Positions 1,514 to 62,275 of a DNA stretch of 64,000 nt are shown here, one piece after another. The translations under genes and the position numbers were made by a program. The notes under the pieces were generated by a model. The model ran no database searches. It was not told where the DNA came from and saw nothing but the letters and a program-made list of their open reading frames with translations. This DNA comes from Enterococcus mundtii. GTDB taxonomy: Bacteria; Bacillota; Bacilli; Lactobacillales; Enterococcaceae. The stretch covers positions 806,001 to 870,000 of the forward strand of contig NZ_AP019810.1 of assembly GCF_013394305.1 (NCBI RefSeq), written 5' to 3'. The stretch's first letter is position 1. Each line of letters starts with the position of its first letter.

Positions 1514-1551
1514 TAAAAAGCGCAAAATCCTTTGATTTTGCGCTTTTTATT
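1514..1551. terminator. Bidirectional terminator between nrdI and murP
   Basis: A strong hairpin with stem AAAAAGCGCAAAATC and loop CTTT, with A and T runs on the two flanks. It can stop transcription from both converging genes; the murP stop codon touches it. Confidence 0.85.
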
Positions 1552-3523
1552 ATTTTACACTTTCCACATCCATCACGGGTGTTTTTGCTGTTACTTCACC
1601 TGTATGTGTTAAAACAAACGTTAGGACATGTTCCATATTTGTCAGGAGAACCATCATAGCGGTTTCTTTTCCTGCCTCTTTGATCGCAGCTAGATCCACG
1701 TCCGCTATCATCGTATCTTTTGTGACAGCTTGTCCTTCACTCACTTTTATATCAAATGGCGTCCCACCTAGTTCCACAGTATTGACTCCCATGTGGATTA
1801 ATAGCTCTAACCCATCAGCTGTTGTTAATCCGATGGCATGTTTCGTTGGGAAAATAGAGCTGATGATCCCAGAAGTTGGCGCATAGATATGACCATTCGT
1901 TGGTTCAACAAAATACCCTTCTCCCATCATCTTTTGAGCAAATACAGGATCACTCGCTTGTTCGATTGATTGCACTGTACCATCTGCTACTGCACATAAT
2001 TGAACGGCTTGTGTTTGATTTGTTGAGTCAGTACTTGATGCTGTATAAACAGGTGCTTCTTCTGCTAATTCTTCTTTCGCTAATTGTTCTTTAGGAATCC
2101 CGAAAAAGAAAGTAGCTAAGAATCCGCCCGCATAAGCAGCTAATAATCCAAGGACGTAGCCAAACCATTTGCCATCTGAAATCAAAGGAATCAACGCTGC
2201 GCCAGAAGGTCCAATAGCAATGGCACCAATATTCCCGATCAAGCCAATCACCGCACCACCGATACCGCCTCCAATACAAGCAGTAATGAATGGACGACCT
2301 AAAGGCAATGTTACCCCATAGATCAATGGTTCACCAATCCCTAAAATCCCTACAGGTAACGCACCTTTGATCATTTCAGTCAATTCTTTGTCTTTCTTAC
2401 AACGTACCCATAAAGCAAGCGCAGCACCAACTTGTCCAGCTCCTGCCATTGCTAAAATAGGCAATAATAATGTACGTCCTGTTTCATCGATCATTTGCAC
2501 ATGGATCGGAGTCAATATTTGATGCAAACCAAACATGACCATCGGTAAGAATAATGTACCTAATACAAATCCTGAGAAGGCACCACCCACACTAAGTACC
2601 CAATTGATCCCTCCTACCATACCATCTGAGATAAAACCAGCTAATGGCATGATCAAGAAAATCTCGATCAGCCCGATGACAATCAATGAAAGTGTTGGTG
2701 TCACAATGATGTCTACTGCATCAGGAACGATTTTGTGTAATTTCTTTTCAACGATCGAAAGCAACCAGACCGCAAAGATCACTCCGATGATCCCACCTTG
2801 TCCGGCAGCAAGTGGGGTTCCAGTAAACAGGTTCGTCAAAGGAGCTTCTGGATTCATCCCTGTCAACATGACAACCGCACCGATTACTCCACCAAGTGTT
2901 GGCGTTGCGCCAAATACTTGAGCGGCATTGATCCCAGTATAGATGACAAGATAACTAAACATCCCATTTTTAAGAATGTTCATGATGTCAATGTACTGTT
3001 GCCATGATGCGCCATCGATGGTTCCGGCTGTCACAAGGTTTGTCAATACTGCGGCAATCCCTGCAACGATCCCTGTACCAACAAAAGCTGGAATCATTGG
3101 GACAAATATATTCGAGATATCTTTTAAAATAGATTTGATTTTTGACGGTTTTTGTTTTGATTTTTGTACGTTCTTCATCTCTTGGGCACGTTCGTTGACC
3201 TTGTCTTTCCCTGATAAACCAGTTGTAACATTAGGGTTTCCAGGAATTTTTTCACCTAGTTTGACTCCTGCTTGGTCAACCATTTCTTGTGCGACTTTGT
3301 TTACTTTCCCTGGTCCGATGATGACTTGTAACTGTTCGTCCTCAACTACCCCTAACACGCCCGGTATCGCTTTCAATTTCGCTACGTCGACCAACGATTC
3401 ATCAATGACCTTCATCCGAACCCGTGTCATGCAATGGACAACGCTGTCTACGTTGCCCATGCCACCAGCCCCAGCATAAATTTGTTTTGCCAGTTCTGTC
3501 AAAGTCAATTCATTTTTTGCCAT
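1550..3523 (-). CDS. murP: PTS EIIBCA, MurNAc / MurNAc-GlcNAc transporter (MurP type)
   Basis: 657 residues. EIIB comes first (phospho-acceptor Cys31 in [12 protein letters not shown]), then the multi-helix EIIC (about residues 125-480, with [18 protein letters not shown]), then a glucose-type EIIA (about 505-657, active His in [14 protein letters not shown]). It lies 14 nt downstream of murQ and in one operon with mupG, which points to import and 6-phosphorylation of N-acetylmuramic acid or MurNAc-GlcNAc. MurP of E. coli and S. aureus lacks its own EIIA; here the EIIA is fused, so the system needs only EI and HPr. The start at 3523 has the site AAGGGGGAAAAGGAA. Sucrose- or trehalose-type alternatives are made unlikely by the neighbours. 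Confidence 0.85.
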
Positions 3524-3536
3524 TTCCTTTTCCCCC

Positions 3537-4430
3537 TTACAACGTTCGTTTTACAAAGCCGTCTGCCTCAGCTAGTTTTCTTTTTGCTGTCTCTTTGTCA
3601 CTATTCGTCAATAACATAACGATCGCTAGTTTAACATTTTGTTCCGCTTCATAAAAGTATTTTTCTGCTGTTTCATAATCCACTTCTGTTGCTTCCATGA
3701 TGATTCGCTTTGAACGTTCGACTAATTTGTCATTTGTTGGCTTGACATCGACCATTAGATTATTGAATACTTTTCCGATACCGATCATACTGATTGTAGA
3801 AATCATATTTAAAATCAATTTCTGTGCAGTTCCAGATTTTAAACGTGTCGAACCTGTTAAAAATTCTGGTCCGGCATCTACCTCAATAGGAAAATCAGCA
3901 TGTTGACTGATTTCAGCTTCTTTATTACAAGAAATCGTGGCCGTCTTTGCGCCGATTGAACGAGCATAGTCTAAGCCACCAATCACATAAGGCGTGCGAC
4001 CGCTTGCCGCGATACCTACGACCAAATCATTTTCCGTCAAGTTCAACTGGATCAAATCTTCTTTCCCTAACTCAAGTGAATCCTCTGCACCTTCAACTGC
4101 GACAGTCATAGCCGCTTCACCACCTGCAATCAAACCAACGACCATTTCAGGCTCTACACCAAATGTAGGAACACACTCGGCTGCATCCAGTACACCCAAT
4201 CGTCCACTTGTGCCAGCGCCCATGTAGATCAAGCGTCCATTTTTTTTGAAAGAAACAATCGCGGCTTCAATCACTGGTTCAATACTTGGTAGTTCTTTTG
4301 CGATAGCTGCCGCCACTTCATGATCTTCTTGATTCATCAAGCGAGCGGCTTCAGAAACACTCATCTCATCCAAACCAAATGTCTTTTGATTTCTACGTTC
4401 CGTTGTTAATTTATCTAAATCGATCGTCAT
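3537..4430 (-). CDS. murQ: N-acetylmuramic acid 6-phosphate etherase
   Basis: 297 residues, normal family length. The SIS-fold signature [20 protein letters not shown] and the catalytic Glu region of VIEAAIVSF are present, and [15 protein letters not shown] follows. MurQ cleaves the lactyl ether of MurNAc-6-P to give GlcNAc-6-P and D-lactate in the cytoplasm. Its ATG overlaps the mupG stop codon (ATGA, 4 nt), a sign of coupled translation, and murP follows 14 nt later. GlcNAc-6-P would be passed to NagA/NagB, which are not in this window. Confidence 0.95.
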
Positions 4431-5494
4431 TTCTCAATTCCTTCTTTACATTTAAATTTATAAATCATTCCTGCATGGATTTGTTGGATCAATGGCAAAT
4501 CAGCCGAGATCACTCGTGCCACACAATTGACTTTTTCATCTGCTGGTAAATCTTCTTTCATTAGTTGGATTTCACCCATATAGCGAAGATACGCTTCATT
4601 ATCTAACGTGACCGTACCTGTTTTCCGTTCATCTGTTAGTCGAGCAGGAATAGGAGGGATTTCTCTAAATCGTGCATCTGCACTACGTACCACAGCTTTA
4701 GCTTCATCTTGTCGATTCGTATGTGTACCTAAAATGATTGGACCAAATGTTGGGTCCAACAATGTCACATGCAATAAGATACCACCTGTTTCTTTATAAT
4801 ACGAAAATTGTTCCTGCGTGGTCAGCGATAGCCCACCGTCACCAATATAGATCAGATCCGTTCCACATGAAGCTAAGTCTAGCGCTGCTGCCAAAGGATG
4901 TTGGTAACGATGTTCTTCCAATGTTGGAAGTCCTTTGTATAAAGGCCCTCTCAACACTTCATCTCCTGGTACAAATCCTTGAATCGTAAATCCTTGTTCT
5001 GCTAACCATTGATTTTTTCTTTGGTACCACGATTTGTCTAACCCTGTTTCTGGGCGCGGATAATAATTGTGCCAAGCTTCCATCTGAGTAAAATCAGCAC
5101 CTGCTTCTTTTAATTCTTGCACATCTTGTTCAGTGATCGTGCTTGCATTCAAACTGATTTTCAATTGATGAGACCACTTCGCAATCTGTTGGTTCGACAG
5201 GTGATAATCCATCCGCAGACCTGTCACACCAATCTCTTTTAATGGCTCAAGATTTTCTAAGGAGAACCCTGCCAACTCTAATGCCTTACCCGATATATCT
5301 ACCATCAACTCTAATCCGGTTGCTTTTGCTTCTTGGCCAAGTTCAGTCAAACGCCTTTTATAAGCTGAAGGATCATCTTCTGGAATATGCATGGATGTAA
5401 AGATACCAATAAATCCCTTCTCTGCCATTTCATGGATATACGTTTTCGTTTCTTCGGACAACTCTTGATTCATAAATACAGAAAAACCAAACAT
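4427..5494 (-). CDS. mupG: 6-phospho-N-acetylmuramidase, DUF871/GH170 (MupG)
   Basis: 355 residues covering the full DUF871 architecture: an N-terminal TIM barrel (about 1-240, with [12 protein letters not shown] and [16 protein letters not shown]) and a C-terminal cyclophilin-like beta domain. In S. aureus, MupG splits MurNAc-6-P-GlcNAc into MurNAc-6-P and GlcNAc and is encoded with murQ and murP, which is the same set as here. It is the first gene of the operon, about 45 nt downstream of a clear sigma-A promoter. No murR-type RpiR regulator is adjacent, unlike in staphylococci. A second DUF871 gene occurs at 53880-54968 in a different pathway. Confidence 0.9.
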
Positions 5495-22300: not shown

Positions 22301-22540
22301 AAGGCATCCTCAAGAAAATGACTCATCACTTTCTTGAGGACGCCTTTTTGCGTGTTACCACCTCATGTTCAAGTTACACTTACATGTAACTCCTCTTCGA
22401 GTACAATCATACTCTAGCAAGCTAACGGTTGCGACCGTCACCGTCTCACAATTTTGCTCGGGGTGAATTGCTCAATAGCCATTTTCCAAACATGCCGCCT
22501 TGCTTCTTCTCAGCTACCGAAGCTCTCTGTTAAAGGTTTT
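22301..22540 (-). promoter_or_regulatory. T-box leader, copy proximal to metN (AUG specifier)
   Basis: Minus-strand T-box sequence AGGTGGTAACACGC (complement of 22350-22363), Stem I motif ACAGAGAGCTTCGGTAGC, and terminator pairing AAGGCGTCCTCAAGAAA with its complement (22301-22347) before a T run. The specifier loop shows GGAAA-AUG-GC, with AUG at 22480-22482. It is 32 nt upstream of the metN start. Confidence 0.88.
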
Positions 22541-22574
22541 TGTATTTGTACTTACTATTTCAACGCAAAAAATA

Positions 22575-22860
22575 TAAAAAAAATCCTTTTATCAGCATAA
22601 ATCTACTGATAAAAGGACGACGTATCGTGGTACCACCTTTATTCGGAAGTTTCCTTCCCTCGATCCAACATCTCTTTACGAGAGATTGGTTGTCCGTTTT
22701 AACGGTCAGACATTTCCGAACTTGCCTACTTATCGACAAGTTATTCTCCAAGGCCATTTTTCAACTTTTCTTACTTGACTCTTTCCACCAACCAGAGCCT
22801 CTCTTTGAAGTTTCCAAGTTTACTTTCCTTATCAACGAATCCATATTTTGTTGTTGAGAA
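22575..22860 (-). promoter_or_regulatory. T-box leader, distal copy upstream of metN (AUG specifier)
   Basis: A second complete T-box in the same orientation: AAGGTGGTACCACGATACG (complement of 22621-22639), Stem I motif AAAGAGAGGCTCTGGTTGG, and a terminator stem CCTTTTATCAG/CTGATAAAAGG (22584-22617) followed by eight T. The specifier reads TTGAAAA-AUG-GCC, with AUG at 22755-22757. Transcripts must pass both terminators to reach metN. Confidence 0.88.
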
Positions 22861-35192: not shown

Positions 35193-35253
35193 AAATAAGC
35201 CATCATTCATAAAAATTTGTAAAATACAATTTTTCATGAATGATGGCTTATTT
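35193..35253. repeat. Long hairpin, AATAAG family member
   Basis: Arms AAATAAGCCATCATTCATgA and their complement enclose about 20 bases. The downstream flank GAACACTTATGTTCCGACC resembles the flank of the copy at 56494-56590, which marks it as a diverged member of that family. Confidence 0.65.
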
Positions 35254-35903
35254 GTTTGAACACTTATGTTCCGACCTTAAAGGATCAATTTTAGACTCCA
35301 CTATTTTCGACTCAAACCTCTGTAACAAAAATTTTATCTACCTGTCTCAACATTATTAGCTACCGATCTAAACAAACAGCTATTTTTATAAACGATAGCG
35401 CAACTATTCGTGACCGTAACCCCAACTACACTCACTTATCATTAGTTATTCGCTTAAATCTACTTAGAGTAACTACGACAATATATCATTCCCGCTTCTA
35501 TTGAAGCCACGATTCCCAGCATACTCTTATGATCGTATTTCCCAAGAGTATTTCCCCGTCGGATTGCTTCAATTGATCCATTCTTCGCCCCCTTATCCCG
35601 TTGCGAGTCAAGAAGTGAGACAAATGATCCATTTGATTCAATGTTTGATCGAACTTCTATATCAATGGTTTATCGTTATCTAGTTTTTCTAAAAATCAAG
35701 CATTTTGAGTCTTACTTGAATCATAGATTTTCTTTATCCAACATAACAATAGCTGGCAACGGGTAATAATAGATTGCTTTTAAACAATCGCTCGAACACA
35801 TTGTATAACGCTTGTTTCCGTTATATTTAAATATAATTTATTCTTTTTTGAAAAATTATTTAAATATAACTTACGCGAGTACTTGACTTTTTTAGTAGCG
35901 CAG

Positions 35904-39057: not shown

Positions 39058-39124
39058 CAAAAAAGTGCACAAAAAAAAGCATGGATGATCTACTCGTTGA
39101 GTTTTGGCACTATACAACGTAAAA

Positions 39125-39250
39125 AGCAAAAGCGCTTTTAGCTACCTTATGAAAAGCCTTATCTCGACAATTCCTGTTCTACCCATTGGCGTCTCTCGAC
39201 ATTTTTGGGCAGTAGCCTATGTTTGTATAGGAGCCTCACCTAACAAATCT
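39125..39250 (-). promoter_or_regulatory. M-box (ykoK) magnesium riboswitch
   Basis: The minus strand reads TTAGGTGAGGCTCCTATACA, then CATAGGCTACTGCCC, ATGTCGAGAGACGCC and AATGGGTAGAACAGG, all in the order of the M-box consensus. Mg2+ binding should favour the terminator at 39024-39057 and so shut off mgtA. A sigma-A promoter precedes it. Confidence 0.95.
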
Positions 39251-39270
39251 TATTCAGTTTTCCCTCACCT

Positions 39271-46611: not shown

Positions 46612-46660
46612 TTTGAGTGCATAACATAAAAGTAGCAGTCGAGACAGAAATGTTTCATCT

Positions 46661-46727
46661 CGAAAAATAAGGCGTCATCCACGAAAATTGTTTTCCTAAT
46701 TTTTGTGGATGGTGCCTTATTTTTCGA
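46661..46727. repeat. AATAAGG-family hairpin
   Basis: Arms CGAAAAATAAGGCGTCATCC and its near-complement with a loop of about 25 bases. The flanks GACAGAAATGTTTCATCT and GCGGTTACTGCTATTTCG are partly shared with the copies at 47188 and 56509. Follows the lipoprotein gene and may act as its terminator. Confidence 0.8.
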
Positions 46728-46901
46728 AGCGGTTACTGCTATTTCGACGTTTATTCAGTTTTAAAATATGCTTTCCCACTCATGTTTCTTTTCATTAGAT
46801 CGTGCATCTTTTAGCCGTTTTTCACTATGAAAGCTCACAATGATGAGTCAATTTTCTGATACATGCTCATCACTAAAAATTCTAAGTTTTCTTAATTAAT
46901 T

Positions 46902-47146: not shown

Positions 47147-47187
47147 AAATACAAAAAAAGAGCGCGGAACAGAAATGTTTAGTCTCT

Positions 47188-47250
47188 AAAAATAAGGCGA
47201 CAACTACAAAAATCATTCTTCCACTTTTTGTAGTTGTTGCCTTATTTTTT
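47188..47250. repeat. AATAAGG-family hairpin
   Basis: Arms TAAAAATAAGGCGACAACTAC / GTAGTTGTTGCCTTATTTTTA with a loop of about 20 bases. The flanks GGAACAGAAATGTTTAGTCT and AGAACTTCTATCTCC resemble those of the copy at 46661. Confidence 0.8.
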
Positions 47251-47327
47251 TAAGAGAGAACTTCTATCTCCATCGTTTATTCAGTTACAGGTTGAAAACA
47301 ATCAGTGAATTTTGCTTTTGTCTCGCC

Positions 47328-49908: not shown

Positions 49909-50916
49909 TTATCGATTTAAATCAATCGTTGGATGCGTCAATAATTGGTCCACTTGCTTTCTGGTCGTCAGTGGCACATCCCCTTGGATCGTGTGGGCTA
50001 AGCGTGAATTACCTAAAGCAAATTGGACGGTTCGATCCAATGACCATTCCTCACTATAGCCTAATAAAATCCCCGCAGCAAAGGCATCACCTGCTCCGAT
50101 ACGATCTAAACTATCCAGTGGATAAGCTTCTGTTTCGATCCATTCTGTCGAAGTCATCAGATAGCCACTTAGTTGTTTCTTTTCACTGGTTGATTGCCGT
50201 GTCGTACCAGCAAACCAGTCAATTTGGTAATCACTTAAAAATTCTTGGAACGAACGAATCTTGGCAGAACGACTGGAAAGGTCGATCGGCCTCTCTAATA
50301 ATTCAGACAAATCACGAACAGAACCAAAGATGACCGTGCAATAGGGCAGTATTTCTTGATAACGTTCCTTCATCACTCTTTTTTTATCTGGCTCTTGGTT
50401 TAGACTCGGACGAAAATTAAAATCAAAACAAACTTTTTTTCCTTTCCTATGCGCTGTTTTTGCTACAGCAAGCGCCACTTCCGCTGAATGCTCATTCAAA
50501 CTCAAACTGATGCCACAGATGTGGACTAAATCAACTGTTTCGATAAAGTCCTCGATGGCATAATCAGCCACTGTAGCTAAGCCAAAAGAACTGTTTTTAC
50601 GATTTTGATAGGTGATTTCTGTTGGTCTGATCCCATAGCCCATCTCAGCAAAATAAGTACCGATATGTTGTTCTTTTTGAATGACATAGGAGGTATTGAT
50701 GCCTAAACTCTTCAAATTAGCTAACGCTGCATCTCCCAAACGATTGGCTGGTAGTGCCGTCAACAAGTAACTTTCCAATCCAAAATGTGCTAGATTACCA
50801 ACTAGATTCACACCTGTTCCAGTATAAGCCATACGCAAAGTGTGTGTTTGTTCCAACATCAGATATTCAGGAGGTGTCAGCCTCAACATCACTTCACCAA
50901 ATGCACCGATTTTCAT
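49909..50916 (-). CDS. kdgK: 2-keto-3-deoxygluconate kinase (PfkB family)
   Basis: 335 residues from ATG 50916 (MKIGAFGEVMLRL). The PfkB C-terminal signature is LDRIGAGDAFAAGILLGY, with the catalytic Asp inside, and the sugar-binding GTGVNLVGNLAHFG is at the N-terminus. It turns 2-keto-3-deoxy-gluconate into KDPG. Last gene of the operon; it starts just after the aldolase stop (GGTGAGTGACCATG). A separate KDG kinase implies that the intermediate made by the upstream ammonia lyase is not phosphorylated, unlike in the Salmonella dga route. Confidence 0.85.
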   Translation of the reverse strand: MKIGAFGEVMLRLTPPEYLMLEQTHTLRMAYTGTGVNLVGNLAHFGLESYLLTALPANRLGDAALANLKSLGINTSYVIQKEQHIGTYFAEMGYGIRPTEITYQNRKNSSFGLATVADYAIEDFIETVDLVHICGISLSLNEHSAEVALAVAKTAHRKGKKVCFDFNFRPSLNQEPDKKRVMKERYQEILPYCTVIFGSVRDLSELLERPIDLSSRSAKIRSFQEFLSDYQIDWFAGTTRQSTSEKKQLSGYLMTSTEWIETEAYPLDSLDRIGAGDAFAAGILLGYSEEWSLDRTVQFALGNSRLAHTIQGDVPLTTRKQVDQLLTHPTIDLNR

Positions 50917-50918
50917 GG

Positions 50919-51671
50919 TCACTCACCTGTTTTCACTAATTTTTTCATCATTTCCAACAACTGACGGACTTCCTGTGGTCGAGTGTCACCTGTCTCTGGA
51001 TCAATGATCGAACTATAGACGTGGGGGATGATTTTTTTGACTCCTGCATCTAATGCGATCTGAACGATTTCTTCAAAATTCGTCAAATCGATTCCACCTG
51101 TTGGCTCTAAATAAAAATCAAACGCTGCACAAGCTGCTGCAACAGCTTCATATTCTTTCTTATGCGCCAATCCCTTCATTGGAAAATATTTGATCGAGCT
51201 TCCACCCATATCCTGTAACAAACGAATAGCTGTTTCGATCGGTACCATCGCAGCAGGGCCTTGGCTACTTAAAGGACCAGTGGCAAGATTGACGTATCCT
51301 TCTTTTCCAGTTGGAGAAACTAAACCATTGACGATCGTGTCTGACTGTCCTAAGACCGCACGAGAAGCGCCAACACCTGTGAAAACTTGGTTGACATGTT
51401 GGGGTTGTAATACTTTCGCCAAGCGAGTCACCATCTGGCTTTGTTTTGGATCGCCGGCACCTAAGCCGATCGATAAGGCGTTATTTGTTGCTTCTTGGTA
51501 TTTTTTCATGTCTGTGATAGCTGCATCATCACTCGGATAATTTTTAGATAAAACACCTAGTAGGATATGCCCTTTGGCTGCTTCATAACATTCTTTTGCA
51601 TTTTCGACAGAATTGGCTAGCACATTCAAACAGATTCTATCTTCAAGATAATTTGGGGTCAATGACATCAT
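50919..51671 (-). CDS. dgaF: KDPG aldolase of the DgaF family
   Basis: 250 residues, TIM-barrel class I aldolase. A likely Schiff-base Lys lies in SSIKYFPMKGLAHKKEY, and YLEPTGGIDLTNFEEI and KKIIPHVYSSIID are typical of DgaF. It splits 2-keto-3-deoxy-6-phosphogluconate into pyruvate and glyceraldehyde 3-phosphate. It is two bases downstream of the ammonia lyase stop. ATG 51671 follows AAAGGAG; a second ATG is the next codon. Confidence 0.88.
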   Translation of the reverse strand: MMSLTPNYLEDRICLNVLANSVENAKECYEAAKGHILLGVLSKNYPSDDAAITDMKKYQEATNNALSIGLGAGDPKQSQMVTRLAKVLQPQHVNQVFTGVGASRAVLGQSDTIVNGLVSPTGKEGYVNLATGPLSSQGPAAMVPIETAIRLLQDMGGSSIKYFPMKGLAHKKEYEAVAAACAAFDFYLEPTGGIDLTNFEEIVQIALDAGVKKIIPHVYSSIIDPETGDTRPQEVRQLLEMMKKLVKTGE

Positions 51672-51673
51672 GA

Positions 51674-52774
51674 TTACTCCTTTGGTTGTAAGATTTCATT
51701 TAAACGTTGGATGATCTGTTCCATCTCTTTTTGCGTCACTGAGCGAATATCGAACTCAATGATCCCATTGTTCGCTTGGTACTCTCTGGTATAAATGACT
51801 GGGGCTTTTGCTTTTAGCTGCTCGATGATCGTCCTGGCAGAGCCTATAACGACTTGGATGCTGGCACGATAGATTTCTCGCCCAGCTGGATCTTGGACGA
51901 CTTTAGCCTTGATACCTGGCAACTTTTCCAGTGCTTCGACAAATGGTTGAACTCTTTTTTTCATCGATTCACCTGATTCACTACCATGTATCAAATAATC
52001 ATCGACTGCTTGGACAAAGCCTAAAACATTTTCTTTGCCGATCTTCATTGATCGACCAATGCCTTGTGATTGCAGACGAACCCAAGAAACGAGCGGATCT
52101 TTACCAATCACCATCCCTGCACTTGGACCTTCAATCGCTTTGGCACCTGAATAGATCACTAGATCAGCGCCCAATGCGGTATATTTCAGTAAGTCTTCTT
52201 CGGCTGCTGCATCAACGATCAAAGGCAGTTCGTAGTGATTAGCCACTTTTACCGCTTCTGCCACATCCAACATACTTTTCTGTACGGTATGATGACTTTT
52301 GATGTACAAAATACCTGCTGTTTGCTCGGTGATCATCGCCTCGATGTGGTCAGGTGTACATTGGTTGGCATACCCTGCCTCAATGACATGCCCACCTCCT
52401 TGTTGGATCATTAATTCCACTGGCACACCGTAATCGACATTGTGACCTTTTGGTAAAATGATTTCTCTGCGTTTGATCGTTTCGTCATAAGGGTGATGCA
52501 CATGGTACATCGATCCTTGACCGATCACCGCAGCAACGGATTGAGCGATTCCAGCAGATGCGGAAGAAACGATTTGAACATCGTCTACTTCTAATTGTTT
52601 TGCCAAGTATGCACCGGTTTTCTTCATCAATTCAGCCATTTCAAAAAAATGTTCGCCCCCAAAACGCTGGGCTTCTAACACCGATTCGCTCAAGGTGGAC
52701 ACGCCTAAGATCGTCATTCGACCAGAAGCATTGATCACTTCATTCAAGCCAAATTTCTCATGATTCACAGTCAT
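51674..52774 (-). CDS. dgaE: DgaE-like PLP-dependent ammonia lyase
   Basis: About 366 residues from ATG 52774, after GGAGGTG. PLP-binding Lys in VIYSGAKAIEGPSAG, with the upstream IVDAAAEEDL aspartate that contacts the pyridine nitrogen. SelA-like fold. Known DgaE eliminates ammonia from D-glucosaminate-6-phosphate to give KDG-6-phosphate. In this operon a KDG kinase is also present, so the substrate here may be unphosphorylated D-glucosaminate. The start overlaps the end of the amidohydrolase gene by 17 nt. Confidence 0.88.
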   Translation of the reverse strand: MTVNHEKFGLNEVINASGRMTILGVSTLSESVLEAQRFGGEHFFEMAELMKKTGAYLAKQLEVDDVQIVSSASAGIAQSVAAVIGQGSMYHVHHPYDETIKRREIILPKGHNVDYGVPVELMIQQGGGHVIEAGYANQCTPDHIEAMITEQTAGILYIKSHHTVQKSMLDVAEAVKVANHYELPLIVDAAAEEDLLKYTALGADLVIYSGAKAIEGPSAGMVIGKDPLVSWVRLQSQGIGRSMKIGKENVLGFVQAVDDYLIHGSESGESMKKRVQPFVEALEKLPGIKAKVVQDPAGREIYRASIQVVIGSARTIIEQLKAKAPVIYTREYQANNGIIEFDIRSVTQKEMEQIIQRLNEILQPKE

Positions 52775-53870
52775 AACTGACACCTCCAATAATAACGCTT
52801 ACAGGGATGATTTGCTGTGTGGTCGTTCGTGTATTGCCATTCGAATCCATCAATTGTTTTTCTTGATCGAGAAACTTATAAATCGTAAAGTCTGCATCAA
52901 AGCCTTCTTTGATGTTGCCTTTTGTCGCTAGGTTGAACTGTCTCGCTGGTGCGCTGGTCACTTTTTCAAGGATTTCTTTCCAAGAATAACCGACAACGTA
53001 GAGTTTCTCCATCGTCGTTGCTAAATCATATACCGGACCATTTTTACGATTTCTGATATAGATATCTGTGCTGATCGAATCGGCTTTGATTCCCGCATGG
53101 AGCGCAGTTTCTGCCACATCAAAATTGAAACTATCAGTCCCATGTCCGATGTCGAACACCACACCATCAGCAATGGCTTTTTTGACGAAGGATTTGATTT
53201 CATTGGTCGCTGGATCAATGATGCCATTAGGCTTTCCATTGAAGCAATGAGTCATCACATCATTCTTTCCCATATGCGCTAAAATTTCATCTAAACGTGG
53301 AGGCGCAGAACCGATATGGACCATTAATGTTAATCCAGCATTTTGCTTTTGGATTTCTTTTGCTAACTTTAAAGGCGTAATCCCATTTTTACCCACGACT
53401 GTTTTACTCATCCGAGCTTTTAGCCCTACAATAAAATCAGGCAATTCTGTTAGTTTTTGATGAACCAGATCTGTTTGGATTTTTGATAAATCTGCCAACT
53501 CATCTTGTTCCACAATCCCCCATTTTGAAATATTCAATAAAGCAAAAACATTTGTCTTTGCTTGCTTTGCATGTTCATAAAATGTATGGATGTTCTCCGC
53601 ACCTGTCGTTCCAGCATCGATGACCGTGGTTACCCCTTTATCCACACCGATTTCATCGGGATAGTCGTAATATAATGTCATTTCTTCAAAACAATGGACA
53701 TGATCATCGATCCACCCTGCGGAGAGATACTGTTCATCTGAAAGTACCAGTTCTTGTTTCCCAGATTCTTCGATATGCTTACTGATCAAGACGATCTTGC
53801 CGTTCTTCACACCGATATCAACAGGTTCTTTGCCTAACTCCTGACTGTTTCTTATAATTAAATCAAACAT
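52758..53870 (-). CDS. Amidohydrolase (EF_0837 family), probable N-acetyl aldonate deacetylase
   Basis: 370 residues with full metal-dependent amidohydrolase fold. The metal ligands are HVH in GWIDDHVHCFEE, a probable carboxylated Lys in VGLKARMSKTVVG, His in LMVHIGSAPP and THCFNGKPNG, and Asp in VVFDIGHGTDSFNF. Annotated relatives are called dihydroorotase-like or adenine deaminase-like, but gene order next to DgaE/DgaF argues for removal of an N-acetyl group from an amino-sugar acid. ATG at 53870 has only a weak AGGCG upstream. Ten bases follow the DUF871 gene. Confidence 0.8.
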   Translation of the reverse strand: MFDLIIRNSQELGKEPVDIGVKNGKIVLISKHIEESGKQELVLSDEQYLSAGWIDDHVHCFEEMTLYYDYPDEIGVDKGVTTVIDAGTTGAENIHTFYEHAKQAKTNVFALLNISKWGIVEQDELADLSKIQTDLVHQKLTELPDFIVGLKARMSKTVVGKNGITPLKLAKEIQKQNAGLTLMVHIGSAPPRLDEILAHMGKNDVMTHCFNGKPNGIIDPATNEIKSFVKKAIADGVVFDIGHGTDSFNFDVAETALHAGIKADSISTDIYIRNRKNGPVYDLATTMEKLYVVGYSWKEILEKVTSAPARQFNLATKGNIKEGFDADFTIYKFLDQEKQLMDSNGNTRTTTQQIIPVSVIIGGVSYDCES

Positions 53871-53879
53871 GACAAACGC

Positions 53880-54968
53880 CTACTTTTCTTTAAATTTGAA
53901 TTTTGACCAAGGGTGGACGAAGGATAGTAACAGTTGTTCATCCGCCACAATGGCACCCACTTTATTTTTTCTTGGATCTTGATGTGGCGTTAATACGATC
54001 TGTAACTCATTCTTGTATTTCCCAAAAGAATCATTTCCAATGACGACATCACCCACTTGAAACGTTTCTTCATTGTCATGAGGAGGATTAGCATCTGCTT
54101 GATACGTTTTTCTCACTTCTGTTGAACGGATCACTTGCGACGTAATATCTCCTCTGCGAACGTGTTGTTCGTTCAAAACGATTCCTCGTTCGACTTCATG
54201 GGTCTGAGGAAGAAACTCAATAGCAAAAACAGTTTGGTATCGATCAACTGTACCTAACGCTTGCAACTCTTCTTCTGAAGCATACGCATTGCCGATAATG
54301 ACATCATCGATAAGATTAGTCGCAAATAAATGTTTAGCCGCTGGAACGACACCTAACTGACGATGCATTTCCAATGTTGGTAAGCCATCGTTTACATCCC
54401 AAGGGCCGATTGTTCCCGTTTGAGAGGTAATAAAAGCGGCGGTACGGATGCCTTGGCGTTTAAATCGGCAACTGCACGTTTCAAAAAATTCATAAGGAAG
54501 TCCAGTTCCTGCTTGAGGATAAAAATTATGACACCCGTATAAAAACGGGGTATTCGCTTGGTGGCTCAAAATATTTTCTAAATAGGCCACATCATTACTC
54601 ATATTCAATTCAATTGCTAACTGGTAAGGATTGTAAGTCAGTAGCGCTTCTTTTCTGCCATCAAAGCCTAAATCTAAACGAATCCCATCTGCACCTAGTT
54701 CATGAAAAAAACTCATGTCATCATAAGAAATGTTCAACTGTTCGAAAATCGATGGTGCGACATCTAAAATCGTTTCAAAGCCAAGTGATGAAGCATATTC
54801 GATCAATTGTTGAAATTTCTGTTTGATTTGTTCTGTTTCCTCAGTCACTTCTAACATGCTCATAAAAATTCGAGTAAACCCATATTTATGTGCCATTTCG
54901 AGATAGGCACGATCTTCTTGCGGATTGCTATGATCAGGATAAAGAGAGATTCCTAGTGAACGTTTCAT
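53880..54968 (-). CDS. DUF871/GH170 protein, second paralog
   Basis: 362 residues, same two-domain layout as mupG at 4427-5494: TIM barrel (GADGIRLDLGFDG, FLYGCHNFYPQAGTGL) and C-terminal beta domain (about 245-355). Residue identities to MupG are scattered but clear. Here it sits between a lactose/cellobiose-type EIIC and aldonate-processing enzymes, so the likely reaction is hydrolysis of a phosphorylated disaccharide whose second unit is an N-acetyl-aldonic acid. Substrate by inference. Spacing to neighbours is 10-24 nt. Confidence 0.85.
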   Translation of the reverse strand: MKRSLGISLYPDHSNPQEDRAYLEMAHKYGFTRIFMSMLEVTEETEQIKQKFQQLIEYASSLGFETILDVAPSIFEQLNISYDDMSFFHELGADGIRLDLGFDGRKEALLTYNPYQLAIELNMSNDVAYLENILSHQANTPFLYGCHNFYPQAGTGLPYEFFETCSCRFKRQGIRTAAFITSQTGTIGPWDVNDGLPTLEMHRQLGVVPAAKHLFATNLIDDVIIGNAYASEEELQALGTVDRYQTVFAIEFLPQTHEVERGIVLNEQHVRRGDITSQVIRSTEVRKTYQADANPPHDNEETFQVGDVVIGNDSFGKYKNELQIVLTPHQDPRKNKVGAIVADEQLLLSFVHPWSKFKFKEK

Positions 54969-54992
54969 ATTAACGCCTGCTTTCTTTTCTAT

Positions 54993-56333
54993 TTACTCGT
55001 TCGTGATACCATCTGTGATCTGGACAGAGGCTTGTTCTGCTTGTTCTGCTTGTTCTGCTTTCTCCTGTGCCAACTGTTGTTTCTCAAATACTTTGAAGAA
55101 TGGATAATAGATCGCCAAAGTGATAAAGAAGTTGAACACGACTAAGACACCCGCAGCGACACTCCAATTGGTACTCATCCAAGCCGCAAATGGCGCTGGT
55201 ATCGCGAAAGGCAGCCTTGCCACCATCATTGGCACTAAACCACTTACCGTAAGGACATAAGAAATTGTTGTCGTTACTAAGGGTGCGACAATAAATGGGA
55301 TGCCTAATACTGGGTTCATGACGATCGGTGCACCAAAAATCATTGGTTCATTGATATTGAATAAACCGGGAAGGATCGACAGACGTCCTAAGCTTTTCAG
55401 ATACTTGGATTTGGAAAACATGAACAGTACGACTAATGCAAGGGTCGTACCTGCCCCACCGATCCAGACAAACCATTGTAAAAATTGTTCTGTAAAGATA
55501 TTTGGCATATCATGTGCATTGGTTCCTGCATTGAATGCGTCGATATTTTCAGCAATCGAGATATCCCAAAACGGACGAATCACCGGTCCCATGATAGCTG
55601 GTCCATGAATCCCTAATACCCAGAAGAAACAAATCAAGAAAACCGTAAGTAGTCCACCAAATAAACTGTTCCCTGCTAACACGCCTTTAAGTGGCATCAA
55701 CAATTGACTCAAGAAACCATTCAAGTCAAAGCCAAGCAAATGACGGATGACCCAAAAGAAAATCAAGATCACTGCTCCTGGGATCAATGCGACAAAAGAA
55801 TTCGTCACTTCTGGCGGCACACCATCTGGCATTTTTATCGTGATTTTCTTTTCAATAAAGAAACGATAGATCTCTACAGTCAAAATCGCTGTTACGATTG
55901 CCCCAAACAAAGAACCTGAACCAAGATTTGCAATATTGATATAGCGTCCAGCGGTTATCCCTTCAAGATCTTCCAACACTTGAGTTGGTGGCGCAGCTAC
56001 GATCAGAAAGGACATCAAAGCTAAAATACCAGCAGTTAATGAATCTAAACGATAGCTCTTTGCTAATGAAGAGGCAATCCCAAATGTGGCATATAAAGCT
56101 AAGATCCCCACTGTATATCGAAATGGGATATCTAAAATTGCCCGATATGGTTCAATGACTGCTGCGACCGACGCAATCGGGATGTTCAATAATATCGTAA
56201 AAAATGAACCAACGATCGTTAATGGCATTGTCGCAATGATTCCTTTTCGAATCGCTGTCATGTGACGCTGTGTACCAATCCGATTCGCAACAGGCATGAT
56301 TTTTTGTTCGATCAACCCTACAAATTTATCCAT
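54993..56333 (-). CDS. PTS EIIC, lactose/cellobiose/chitobiose family
   Basis: 446 residues, about ten membrane helices, domain starting IEQKIMPVANRIGTQRHM as in CelB/ChbC. The substrate-binding NINEPMIFGAPIVMNP lies near residue 335. This family takes up disaccharides such as cellobiose or chitobiose, phosphorylated at C6 of the non-reducing sugar. No EIIA or EIIB gene is in the operon, so shared EIIA/EIIB of the cellobiose type must be supplied from elsewhere. A short AEQ repeat (AEQAEQAEQ) lies near the C-terminus. First structural gene, directly behind the palindrome at 56349. Confidence 0.93.
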   Translation of the reverse strand: MDKFVGLIEQKIMPVANRIGTQRHMTAIRKGIIATMPLTIVGSFFTILLNIPIASVAAVIEPYRAILDIPFRYTVGILALYATFGIASSLAKSYRLDSLTAGILALMSFLIVAAPPTQVLEDLEGITAGRYINIANLGSGSLFGAIVTAILTVEIYRFFIEKKITIKMPDGVPPEVTNSFVALIPGAVILIFFWVIRHLLGFDLNGFLSQLLMPLKGVLAGNSLFGGLLTVFLICFFWVLGIHGPAIMGPVIRPFWDISIAENIDAFNAGTNAHDMPNIFTEQFLQWFVWIGGAGTTLALVVLFMFSKSKYLKSLGRLSILPGLFNINEPMIFGAPIVMNPVLGIPFIVAPLVTTTISYVLTVSGLVPMMVARLPFAIPAPFAAWMSTNWSVAAGVLVVFNFFITLAIYYPFFKVFEKQQLAQEKAEQAEQAEQASVQITDGITNE

Positions 56334-56348
56334 TTATTACTCCCCCTC

Positions 56349-56372
56349 ATTTAAACATTATAATGTTTAAAT
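56349..56372 (-). promoter_or_regulatory. Perfect 24-base palindrome at the EIIC promoter
   Basis: Half-site ATTTAAACATTA with exact complement; its centre reads TATAAT, so it covers the probable -10 box. It starts 16 bases upstream of the EIIC start codon. The adjacent GntR-family regulator is the natural candidate for binding it. Confidence 0.65.
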
Positions 56373-56493
56373 AAAAGATAACATATCAACGATATAATGT
56401 AAACATTTTCATTAAAATATATGATTATTCTGACAAAAAGAGACTGAGACACCCAGCCTCTCCCACCTCCTGAAACCGAATAAACGGCGTGAA

Positions 56494-56590
56494 CAGAAGT
56501 AACCTCTTCGAGAAACAAGGCGCCATCCACAAAAATTTGAAGAACAATTTTCATGGATGACGCCTTATTTCTCGAGGTTACACACTTCTG
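56494..56590. repeat. AATAAGG-family hairpin with nested outer stem
   Basis: Outer arms AGAAGTAACCTC and GAGGTTACACACTTCT; inner arms CGAGAAACAAGGCGCCATCC and GGATGACGCCTTATTTCTCG. It sits between the EIIC gene and the gntR gene. The left flank AACCGAATAAACGGCG recurs at 62171. Confidence 0.85.
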
Positions 56591-56611
56591 CCCCGACCTC
56601 ATTGCGATTGT

Positions 56612-57313
56612 CTATGTTTCGTAGTTGATATGATAAGGATGTAGATCCGTATGATAAATTGCCTCTGAATACTCGACCACTTCTCGATCTTCCGTCGTTG
56701 ATCGACGTACACGCTTGATCCCGATTTCTGAAGTCGTCTTTAATAGTGCTTTTTCTTCATCTGTTAAAAACGTGGCAGAAAAGTCATCTGAAAAAGAGTC
56801 GATAATGTGATTATTCTGTGTGAGCAATCGGTACAAAGATTCTTTATCAAATTCTTTTTGTTTCATTTTATTCATGTCTTTTGGTAAATAGTGAACAAAA
56901 TAGATATATGGTTGGTCATTTAAATAGTATAAACGCTTGAAGCATACCGCAGCTGAACCAAACATCGAATATAATGGATGATCTTTTTTGATACTGATTT
57001 TTTCTAAACCAATCGTTTCTTTGCGAACCTCATATTGGGAATCTTTTAAGATCTGAGTAAAACTTTCGGCTTTAGATAAACGATTGTAAGGACGATTGCT
57101 TAATACTGTCGTTCCCCGACCACTTTTCTTTTCGACATATTCATCTGTAGCTAATAACTCGATGGCTTTTCGCACAGTGATTTTACTCACTTGGAACAAT
57201 TCTTCTAACTCATTTTCAGTCGGTAACATACTCCCCACCGGATACTTTCCTGAAAAAATATCCTCTTTGATCTTGTCTGCTACTTCTAAATATAAAACAC
57301 GCGTTCTTTTCAT
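56612..57313 (-). CDS. GntR/HutC-family regulator of the aldonate operon
   Basis: About 233 residues from ATG 57313, after AAAGGTGAAG; upstream in-frame starts have no ribosome site. N-terminal winged helix (YLEVADKIKEDIFSGKYPVG, NELEELFQVSKITVRKAIEL), then the UTRA effector domain (about 90-230). UTRA domains bind small metabolites, commonly sugar phosphates. An inverted repeat TTTATGTTA-N9-TAACATAAA at 57330-57356 overlies its own leader and may be an autoregulatory site. It differs from the palindrome in front of EIIC. Confidence 0.9.
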   Translation of the reverse strand: MKRTRVLYLEVADKIKEDIFSGKYPVGSMLPTENELEELFQVSKITVRKAIELLATDEYVEKKSGRGTTVLSNRPYNRLSKAESFTQILKDSQYEVRKETIGLEKISIKKDHPLYSMFGSAAVCFKRLYYLNDQPYIYFVHYLPKDMNKMKQKEFDKESLYRLLTQNNHIIDSFSDDFSATFLTDEEKALLKTTSEIGIKRVRRSTTEDREVVEYSEAIYHTDLHPYHINYET

Positions 57314-57356: not shown

Positions 57357-57407
57357 TAAACAAAAAAAAGAATAGAAATGTTGATAATTGGTCTACCTAT
57401 GTACAAA

Positions 57408-61998: not shown

Positions 61999-62189
61999 GT
62001 TGTTTAACTACATTTACTATATCACTATTACATTCGTTATGCAACCCTTTTCATGGTTTTTATTTTTTCAAAAGGAGAAGAACTTTTAGCATTTTGTAAC
62101 ACTGAATCCAATATACATGCGATGAGAGTAACAAAAAAGGAGTGGGACATTCGTTCACCTCCCCCACCTATAACCGAATAAACGGCGGG

Positions 62190-62275
62190 AACAGAAGTAA
62201 CCTCTTCGGAAATAAGGGTCTCCCTGAGAAAATATAGAAAACTATTTTCTCAGGGAGACCCTTATTACTTGGAGC
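62190..62275. repeat. AATAAGG-family hairpin
   Basis: Inner arms AATAAGGGTCTCCCTGAG and its exact complement; flank ACAGAAGTAACCTCTTCGG on the left. The inner stem sequence differs from all other copies, yet pairs perfectly. The left flank AACCGAATAAACGGCGGGAA is shared with the copy at 56494. Confidence 0.85.

Follow-up and report, generated by a model that had tools for sequence, protein, structure and literature searches.

A phosphotransferase-linked operon of Enterococcus mundtii predicted to degrade an aldonic-acid-ended aminosugar disaccharide, with chitobionic acid as the best candidate

Introduction

The action of C1-oxidizing lytic polysaccharide monooxygenases (LPMO) is a shown source of N-acetylglucosaminate (GlcNAc1A) ends, and the available text on Pseudoalteromonas prydzensis describes an ong system for this acid in which OngB deacetylates GlcNAc1A, OngC deaminates glucosaminate (GlcN1A) to 2-keto-3-deoxygluconate (KDG) and KdgK phosphorylates KDG to 2-keto-3-deoxy-6-phosphogluconate (KDPG) (PMC9537276). 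The complete ong pathway is reported there from Gammaproteobacteria and one Betaproteobacterium. Here we analyze an operon of Enterococcus mundtii that lies in a 64,000-nucleotide stretch of DNA (the window; C1:806001-870000 of the 3.3-Mb genome). Its seven genes, all on the minus strand, encode a GntR regulator, the enzyme IIC (EIIC) of a phosphotransferase system (PTS), a family 170 glycoside hydrolase (GH170), a metal amidohydrolase (AH), DgaE, DgaF and a PfkB kinase. To our knowledge, a complete route for LPMO-oxidized chitin ends has been described only in Proteobacteria, marine ones and some others. No description of the pathway in Gram-positive bacteria was present among the literature matches listed, with most subscription journals outside coverage.

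In the Dga system of Salmonella, a mannose-type PTS phosphorylates the acid itself and no amidohydrolase, glycosidase or kinase is known to take part. The E. mundtii operon likewise holds DgaE- and DgaF-family enzymes together (the enzyme name is that of PDB 7lc0/7lce and NCBIfam NF047797) but differs in its lactose/cellobiose-type EIIC and its kinase. In the available text on Lacticaseibacillus paracasei, use of diacetylchitobiose requires both chbC and chbE, the latter a GH170 gene (PMC12791066), and that chb operon resembles ours in having a regulator, a cellobiose-type EIIC and a GH170 for a disaccharide of N-acetylglucosamine (GlcNAc). It differs in having its own IIA, IIB and DUF3284 protein, and the same text describes no AH, DgaE, DgaF or kinase in it. 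IIA and IIB genes that would complete a cluster with IIC and GH170 were not found in the E. mundtii operon; IIA and IIB lie beside the equivalent operon on a Clostridioides difficile plasmid.

MupG of Staphylococcus aureus, the founder of GH170, functions in the recycling of N-acetylmuramic acid (MurNAc)-GlcNAc, and the accessible part of that report notes several paralogs per genome, some of them expected to have other substrates (PMC6262408). The E. mundtii operon would share with MupG/MurP the PTS import of a disaccharide, GH170 cleavage of the 6-phospho-disaccharide and release of a free reducing-end sugar. The S. aureus system differs in using another PTS family and in having murQ and murR in place of the AH-DgaE-DgaF-kinase set; no linkage to murQ or to a MurP-type PTS was found in the E. 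mundtii operon.

NCBIfam names EF_0829-EF_0839 of Enterococcus faecalis, together with AHA_3910-3917, as a cluster of unknown function. AH, DgaE and DgaF are common to that cluster and our operon. The cluster differs in that entry presumably proceeds via EF_0830-0833 and in having no kinase; in E. faecalis and its relatives the two modules form a single locus. Several of these genes have surfaced in other work, as far as the accessible portions of the reports go: EF0834, which by its gene number is the EIIC of the E. faecalis operon, is among the targets of NagY, an antiterminator of GlcNAc metabolism (PMC12502629); a screen in urine picked out the promoter of ef_0839 or of its copy ef_2975 (PMC2912369); ef0836 was chosen as a stable control in experiments with bile (PMC9120511); and EF_0838 was among the proteins detected only in biofilm (PMC11135667).

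The closest functional parallel is with ong, since in both systems, as far as the available text on ong goes, GlcNAc1A would be deacetylated, deaminated to KDG and phosphorylated only then, and both are associated with LPMO (PMC9537276). The E. mundtii operon differs in its PTS import, an intracellular cut by GH170, an EF_0837-type deacetylase and a DgaE/SelA-type lyase, the last two being set apart from OngB and OngC by family (TIGR03583 and TIGR01437) rather than by sequence comparison. Genes for a deacetylase, a lyase, a KDG kinase and a KDPG aldolase stand together in the operon as judged by family only, and the chemistry would be that of the Pseudoalteromonas GlcNAc1A pathway carried out by other deacetylase and deaminase families.

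Results

Gene content and predicted pathway

The gene content previously read from the sequence was confirmed, as all seven families named in an earlier note on this DNA were recovered by Pfam and NCBIfam matches and by solved relatives (Table 1). The description of the genes as one close-packed operon held for the six genes from EIIC to the kinase, whose successive junctions are gaps of 24 bp and then 9 bp, a short overlap, a gap of 2 bp and an overlap of 4 bp. It did not hold for the GntR gene, which is 278 bp from the EIIC gene across an interval containing a repeated hairpin element, a cre-like site and a palindrome. The GntR open reading frame (ORF) is extendable to a TTG at 57406 (57313 is an in-frame ATG), the longest DgaE ORF reaches 52789, and the kinase ORF is extendable to a GTG at 50922.

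Table 1. Predicted genes and regulatory sites of the E. mundtii operon, with window coordinates
Feature	Position	Strand	Family or motif evidence	Best solved relative
GntR/UTRA regulator	56612..57313	-	PF00392 68 bits, PF07702 68 bits	
PTS EIIC, lactose/cellobiose family	54993..56333	-	PF02378 209 bits; TIGR00410 (lacE subfamily) 401 bits, cut-off 236	
GH170 (DUF871, MupG-like), predicted 6-phospho-glycosidase	53880..54968	-	MupG_N and MupG_C domains: PF19200 322 bits, PF05913 119 bits, above curated cut-offs of 24 and 24.4	1x7f, 446 bits
EF_0837-type metal amidohydrolase (AH), predicted N-acetyl-glucosaminate deacetylase	52758..53870	-	TIGR03583 531 bits, cut-off 432	2ics, 542 bits
DgaE-family pyridoxal phosphate lyase, predicted glucosaminate -> KDG + NH3	51674..52774	-	TIGR01437 539 bits, cut-off 385	7lc0, 285 bits, named D-glucosaminate-6-phosphate ammonia lyase
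DgaF-type KDPG aldolase	50919..51671	-	NF047796 385 bits (cut-off 300), PF07071 353 bits	3lm7
PfkB sugar kinase, predicted KDG kinase	49909..50916	-	PF00294 123 bits	3ktn, 426 bits; next, KDG kinase 2afb, 142 bits
Predicted operator AACATTATAATGTT	56354..56367	.	20 bp ahead of EIIC start codon	
cre-like site ATGAAAATGTTTACA	56398..56412	-	1 mismatch to CcpA consensus; similar sequences in relatives	

Against the cellobiose equivalog TIGR00359 the EIIC reached 401 bits where 434 are required, and its relatives within GH170 loci were 65-99% identical to it. Likewise, DgaE scored 356 bits against the glucosaminate-6-phosphate lyase model NF047797, whose cut-off is 600, and the kinase was below the cut-offs of the NCBIfam KDG-kinase models. 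Residues H57, H59, K151, H185, H208 and D269 of AH, which we take to be metal ligands from knowledge of the superfamily, were unchanged in 12 of 12 aligned relatives. Among named genomes the nearest AH was that of E. mundtii (97%), in a comparison from which records of this genome may have been excluded. The GntR shared 41% identity with its counterpart on the C. difficile plasmid. Among the GH170 paralogs of the genome, the one in the operon was 26% identical to the murQ-linked one (4427-5494) and 46% identical to a third. The murQ-linked paralog belongs to a set of murQ, GH170 and MurP-like PTS genes at 1550-5494 of the window that is probably for MurNAc-GlcNAc.

We estimate a probability of about two in three that the operon serves the PTS-based use of an aminosugar disaccharide ending in an aldonic acid, the likeliest being chitobionic acid (GlcNAc-beta-1,4-GlcNAc1A). 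This is the best candidate substrate on sequence evidence, and the choice of GlcNAc-GlcNAc1A over every other disaccharide is inferred. Disaccharide PTS phosphorylate the non-reducing sugar, and the EIIC, together with EIIA and EIIB encoded elsewhere, would import the disaccharide and phosphorylate its non-reducing GlcNAc. By analogy with MupG and ChbE, the GH170 is predicted to release GlcNAc-6-phosphate, which would enter the ordinary Nag pathway, and free GlcNAc1A. As their families suggest, the EF_0837-type amidohydrolase would then remove acetate from GlcNAc1A, DgaE would remove ammonia to give KDG, the kinase would convert KDG to KDPG, and DgaF would split KDPG into pyruvate and glyceraldehyde-3-phosphate. 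The GntR would repress transcription at AACATTATAATGTT and probably also act at a one-change site on an LPMO gene.

Distribution of the operon and the kinase-GH170 association

A survey of 106 Enterococcaceae genomes gave 82 AH genes above the TIGR03583 cut-off, spread over 74 of the genomes, and a GH170 gene adjoined AH in 56 of the 106. The same gene set recurred in Vagococcus, Lactococcus (where the kinase is ahead of DgaF), Companilactobacillus and a Clostridioides plasmid, so the gene arrangement is far from chance. The last of these is a 163-kb C. difficile plasmid that carries the whole operon plus IIA and IIB (L340, NZ_CP149720.1, 50313-65386).

The neighborhoods of AH in 80 loci were mainly of three kinds, with L088 and L102 fitting none of them. 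Kind A is the window type; kind B consists of the EF_0829-0833 module (TIGR03582, 03577, 03578, 03580 and 03579) followed by AH-DgaE-DgaF; and kind C, to which the locus of one E. faecalis record belongs, consists of EF_0829-0833, EIIC, a small protein (c12), GH170, AH, DgaE, DgaF and the kinase. The c12 protein, of about 82-110 amino acids and membrane-like by eye, lies between EIIC and GH170 (L048, 6697-6978, and 36 other loci). The operon of the window lacks it, and neither Pfam nor NCBIfam gave a match for the copy in L048.

The earlier note had argued that GH170 frees an unphosphorylated acid and that a KDG kinase is therefore required, and this logic was borne out by the locus comparison. 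Among 116 distinct uncut AH loci, a kinase lay beside AH in 65 of 67 loci with GH170, in none of the 42 with only the EF_0830-0833 module and in five of seven with neither. These loci are what remained of 169 after removal of 40 exact duplicates and 13 loci cut by contig ends, the 169 comprising the 80 Enterococcaceae loci and, in addition, 80 loci from named genomes, eight from a 398-genome phylum sample and that of G036. The loci are mostly from Enterococcus and many are close kin, so the counts are not independent events. Within Enterococcaceae alone, for which 80 of the 82 above-cut-off AH genes were used (own genome and G036 excluded) and seven were called cut, uncut loci had a kinase in 49 of 50 cases with GH170 vs. 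none of 23 without. Loci that held both the module and GH170 had a kinase in 22 of 24 cases; the two GH170 loci without one, in E. rivorum (L067) and Lactococcus reticulitermitis (L199), both also have the module.

Kinship was addressed with a DgaE tree of 115 loci, on the best version of which the GH170 label changes 13 times and which gave five independent contrasts on starred branches. The direction of the kinase-GH170 association was consistent in this test and significance was not reached.

The five loci with a kinase and neither GH170 nor module were three Paenibacillus-like ones (L125, L126 and L128) and two from Listeria. L125 has an ABC-type binding protein, a permease and a GH130 nearby. 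The two Listeria loci have the order GntR, palindrome, AH, DgaE, DgaF, kinase and GntP permease (469 bits). GntP permeases transport free sugar acids, and the combination of permease and kinase fits uptake of a free sugar acid from outside. These exceptional loci suggest that the kinase accompanies an acid that would be taken up, or formed in the cell, in unphosphorylated form.

A phosphate site in DgaE or AH was considered as a distinguishing mark and rejected, as kinase-bearing and kinase-free loci differed only conservatively (DgaE position 24 is R vs. K, and K in Salmonella). The idea that EF_0830-0833 is a PTS was likewise rejected, since the predicted model of EF_0830 (predicted local distance difference test, pLDDT, 89) resembles RpiB-type isomerases and not a PTS EIIB; the model of EF_0832 was poor (pLDDT 50). 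The predicted RpiB/LacAB-like isomerase fold of EF_0830 (SFCGS family) goes together with two neighbors that are membrane-like by eye (L048, L062 and 42 more loci), and EF_0830-0833 may possibly be a new type of sugar-acid entry system for the kinase-free loci.

Association with LPMO and chitinase genes

LPMO genes were detected in 45 of the 106 Enterococcaceae genomes, with 112 matches in all, 105 of them outside this genome. The E. mundtii genome itself had seven LPMO and three GH18 matches. A survey for co-occurrence with AA10 LPMO genes, which the earlier note had proposed as a check, was positive: LPMO genes were present in 40 of 56 genomes with a GH170 operon vs. five of 50 without (Fisher P 6e-11, kinship ignored). 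The contrast was also seen within one genus, g3 (three of five vs. one of 15, P 0.03), and the other three genera tested gave none. Only three of 18 genomes with AH but no adjoining GH170 had an LPMO.

The palindrome AACATTATAATGTT was found upstream of EIIC with no more than one mismatch in 62 of 67 GH170 loci, irrespective of whether a GntR gene was a neighbor (32 of 33 loci) or not (30 of 34). These 67 are the GH170 loci that remained once duplicates were removed and an EIIC match with 200 bp or more of preceding sequence was required, and they include the cut contig L114, whose position is not meaningful. Shuffled upstream regions (50 shuffles each) had means of 3.3-4.9 mismatches, and a few of the 67 sets reached one mismatch. 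Three exact copies are present on the C. difficile plasmid, two of them ahead of EIIC and the third ahead of IIB-IIA. When 45 Enterococcaceae genomes were scanned with the pattern WACATTATAAYGTW, 40 of them had between one and three sites, and the reversed pattern had none in the first 23 genomes and a few in the other 22.

In the E. mundtii genome, the only exact copy of AACATTATAATGTT is that of the operon. There are two one-mismatch copies, and two-mismatch sites are background (28 vs. 23 for the reversed pattern). One of the two, AACATTATAATGTA at C1:919993-920006, lies 30 bp before the ATG of a 214-residue AA10 LPMO (PF03067, 139 bits); on the opposite strand it reads as the variant found in operons of kind C. 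The other, at C1:1595266, lies between replicative-helicase-like and adenylosuccinate-synthetase-like genes (named by eye). In G087, a site stands 68 bp ahead of a gene for a secreted GH18 of 827 residues (269 bits). Two of 19 off-operon WACATTATAAYGTW sites in 54 genomes thus precede LPMO or GH18 genes where about 0.006 were expected, a rough P of about 2e-5 that assumes 10 LPMO/GH18 genes per genome and independence of the 19 sites, four of which are one shared integrase-side site.

A general LPMO regulon was rejected: of 40 regions taken from upstream of LPMO genes in other genomes, two had the site with two mismatches and none had it with one or zero. The site-based link to LPMO is carried by one LPMO in E. 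mundtii and one GH18 in G087.

The site-bearing LPMO gene, in the region L142 6038-11992, adjoins an Amidase_2 gene and genes that by eye resemble a prophage remnant, and a similar LPMO without the site stands among conjugation-type genes, again by eye, in G036. The LPMO gene is possibly mobile.

Other off-operon sites were more varied. In G024, G036 and Vagococcus fluvialis the palindrome precedes another lactose/cellobiose-family EIIC (TIGR00410, 357-365 bits). In G035 it precedes an M60 peptidase with a GH20 close by, and in Vagococcus allomyrinae it lies about 200 bp ahead of a ROK-type kinase. Sites that appeared chance-like or unexplained were the four by a phage-integrase-like gene in G071, G075, G078 and G082 (one Pfam-checked) and those in G029 C14, G035 C5, G077, G080, G081, G089, G503 C3 and G510 C31.

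Discussion

The earlier interpretation of the operon, as a pathway for an aminosugar disaccharide with an aldonic acid end, is supported, having passed tests that it could have failed. The place of EF0834 among the targets of a GlcNAc-metabolism antiterminator (PMC12502629) agrees with it. We also lean toward a wider proposal, that a complete PTS pathway for C1-oxidized chitin disaccharides exists across Gram-positive bacteria, with deacetylase and lyase families other than those of ong and one GntR operator that in some species also covers an LPMO or chitinase gene. Its hosts would be Enterococcus including E. faecalis, Vagococcus, Lactococcus, Companilactobacillus and a Clostridioides plasmid, and some Listeria would have a monomer version. 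LPMO genes are common in enterococci, and the operon offers a testable route for the oxidized ends that they make. If true, the proposal would assign roles to a GH170 subfamily and to EF_0837 and EF_0838, and substrates are thereby proposed for unassigned proteins with solved structures (2ics and 3ktn). The palindrome supplies an operator for mapping the regulon in these species, and the tie between kinase and glycosidase would make the phosphorylation state of the intermediate readable from gene content.

Several observations weigh against the assignment to chitobionic acid or against parts of the route. The operon lacks an EIIA or EIIB gene; a search for lactose/cellobiose-type EIIA gave four matches elsewhere in the genome. 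LPMO genes were missing from 16 of the 56 operon genomes and present in five genomes without the operon, and the site preceded only one of the seven LPMO genes of E. mundtii and none of its three GH18 loci. Of the five contrasts on the DgaE tree, the kinase went the same way as GH170 in 3.1 on average, showed no difference in 1.9 and went the opposite way in none, and the sign test was not significant. No clear catalytic position separated DgaE and AH of kinase-bearing loci from those of kinase-free loci, so that action of this DgaE on the unphosphorylated acid is no more than a prediction. Lastly, in the Paenibacillus-like locus L127 (4624-13677), AH-DgaE-DgaF-kinase follows murQ, a MurP-like EIIBC, GH170 and an RpiR regulator, and an EIIA is present too. 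The L127 GH170 was 43% identical to the murQ-linked GH170 of E. mundtii and 29% identical to that of the operon, and the aminosugar acid may come from peptidoglycan there. L127 supports the view that GH170 feeds AH and weakens chitin as the source for that lineage.

The most credible alternative, which we nevertheless regard as unlikely, retains the same route for another disaccharide ending in an N-acyl amino-sugar acid, for example one derived from N-glycans or peptidoglycan or having another non-reducing sugar. The evidence identifies families and not substrates, and the murQ and MurP-like PTS genes of L127 and the G035 site before an M60 peptidase beside a GH20 both agree with sources other than chitin. 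So do the targets of NagY which, in the accessible text, comprise not only EF0834 but also glycosyl hydrolases such as ef0114 and ef2863, described as acting on large glycoproteins or polysaccharides (PMC12502629). Chitobionic acid is favored by the sites on an LPMO and a GH18 gene, by the LPMO co-occurrence, and by the origin of GlcNAc1A ends in C1-oxidizing LPMO action, as the available text has it (PMC9537276).

The operon could also serve plain N,N'-diacetylchitobiose, with free GlcNAc being oxidized intracellularly to GlcNAc1A before AH, DgaE, the kinase and the aldolase act. ChbE is a precedent in the accessible account of L. paracasei (PMC12791066), this reading is compatible with the sites ahead of another lactose/cellobiose-type EIIC and of the ROK-type kinase of V. 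allomyrinae, and a Gfo/Idh/MocA oxidoreductase is encoded upstream of the E. faecalis locus and near the L126 set. This is improbable, since beyond the named genes and c12 no further gene recurs inside the operon in more than three of 54 Enterococcaceae GH170 loci (flanking genes being partly annotated), and the Listeria loci, with a gluconate-type permease and without GH170, fit an acid that comes from outside. In a search for DUF3284 proteins, 30 short loci were found, of which one (L334) had a GH170, 60% identical to the other GH170 paralog of the E. mundtii genome and 48% to that of the operon.

It is very improbable that the acid arrives phosphorylated and DgaE uses glucosaminate-6-phosphate as in Salmonella, with the kinase having another role. 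The residues of DgaE and AH that fail to separate kinase-bearing from kinase-free loci would allow this, as would the name of the solved relative 7lc0, but the kinase tracks GH170 across loci, DgaE falls far below the cut-off of the 6-phosphate lyase model, and a disaccharide PTS would place the phosphate on the non-reducing sugar. MurNAc-GlcNAc recycling by the operon GH170 as a plain MupG, the reaction of the family founder in the available S. aureus text (PMC6262408), can hardly be the function, as the genome already has a murQ-GH170-MurP-like PTS set with a distant GH170, the operon has no murQ, and AH, DgaE, the kinase and the aldolase would lack an explanation.

Other features of the window

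The cre-like site in Table 1 was scored against WTGNAANCGNWNNCW, which we take to be the CcpA consensus. The hairpin element between GntR and EIIC, at 56470-56600, is about 130 bp long and has the look of a miniature inverted-repeat transposable element or BOX element. Further copies lie at about 46638-46761, 47157-47291, 62159-62269 and 35193-35277 and in other pieces of the genome (71-89% alike), and the close relatives L110, L112 and L113 have the element in the same GntR-EIIC position. Minus-strand riboswitches were found in the window at 22333-22844 and 39082-39254, being two neighboring T-box leaders and one M-box.

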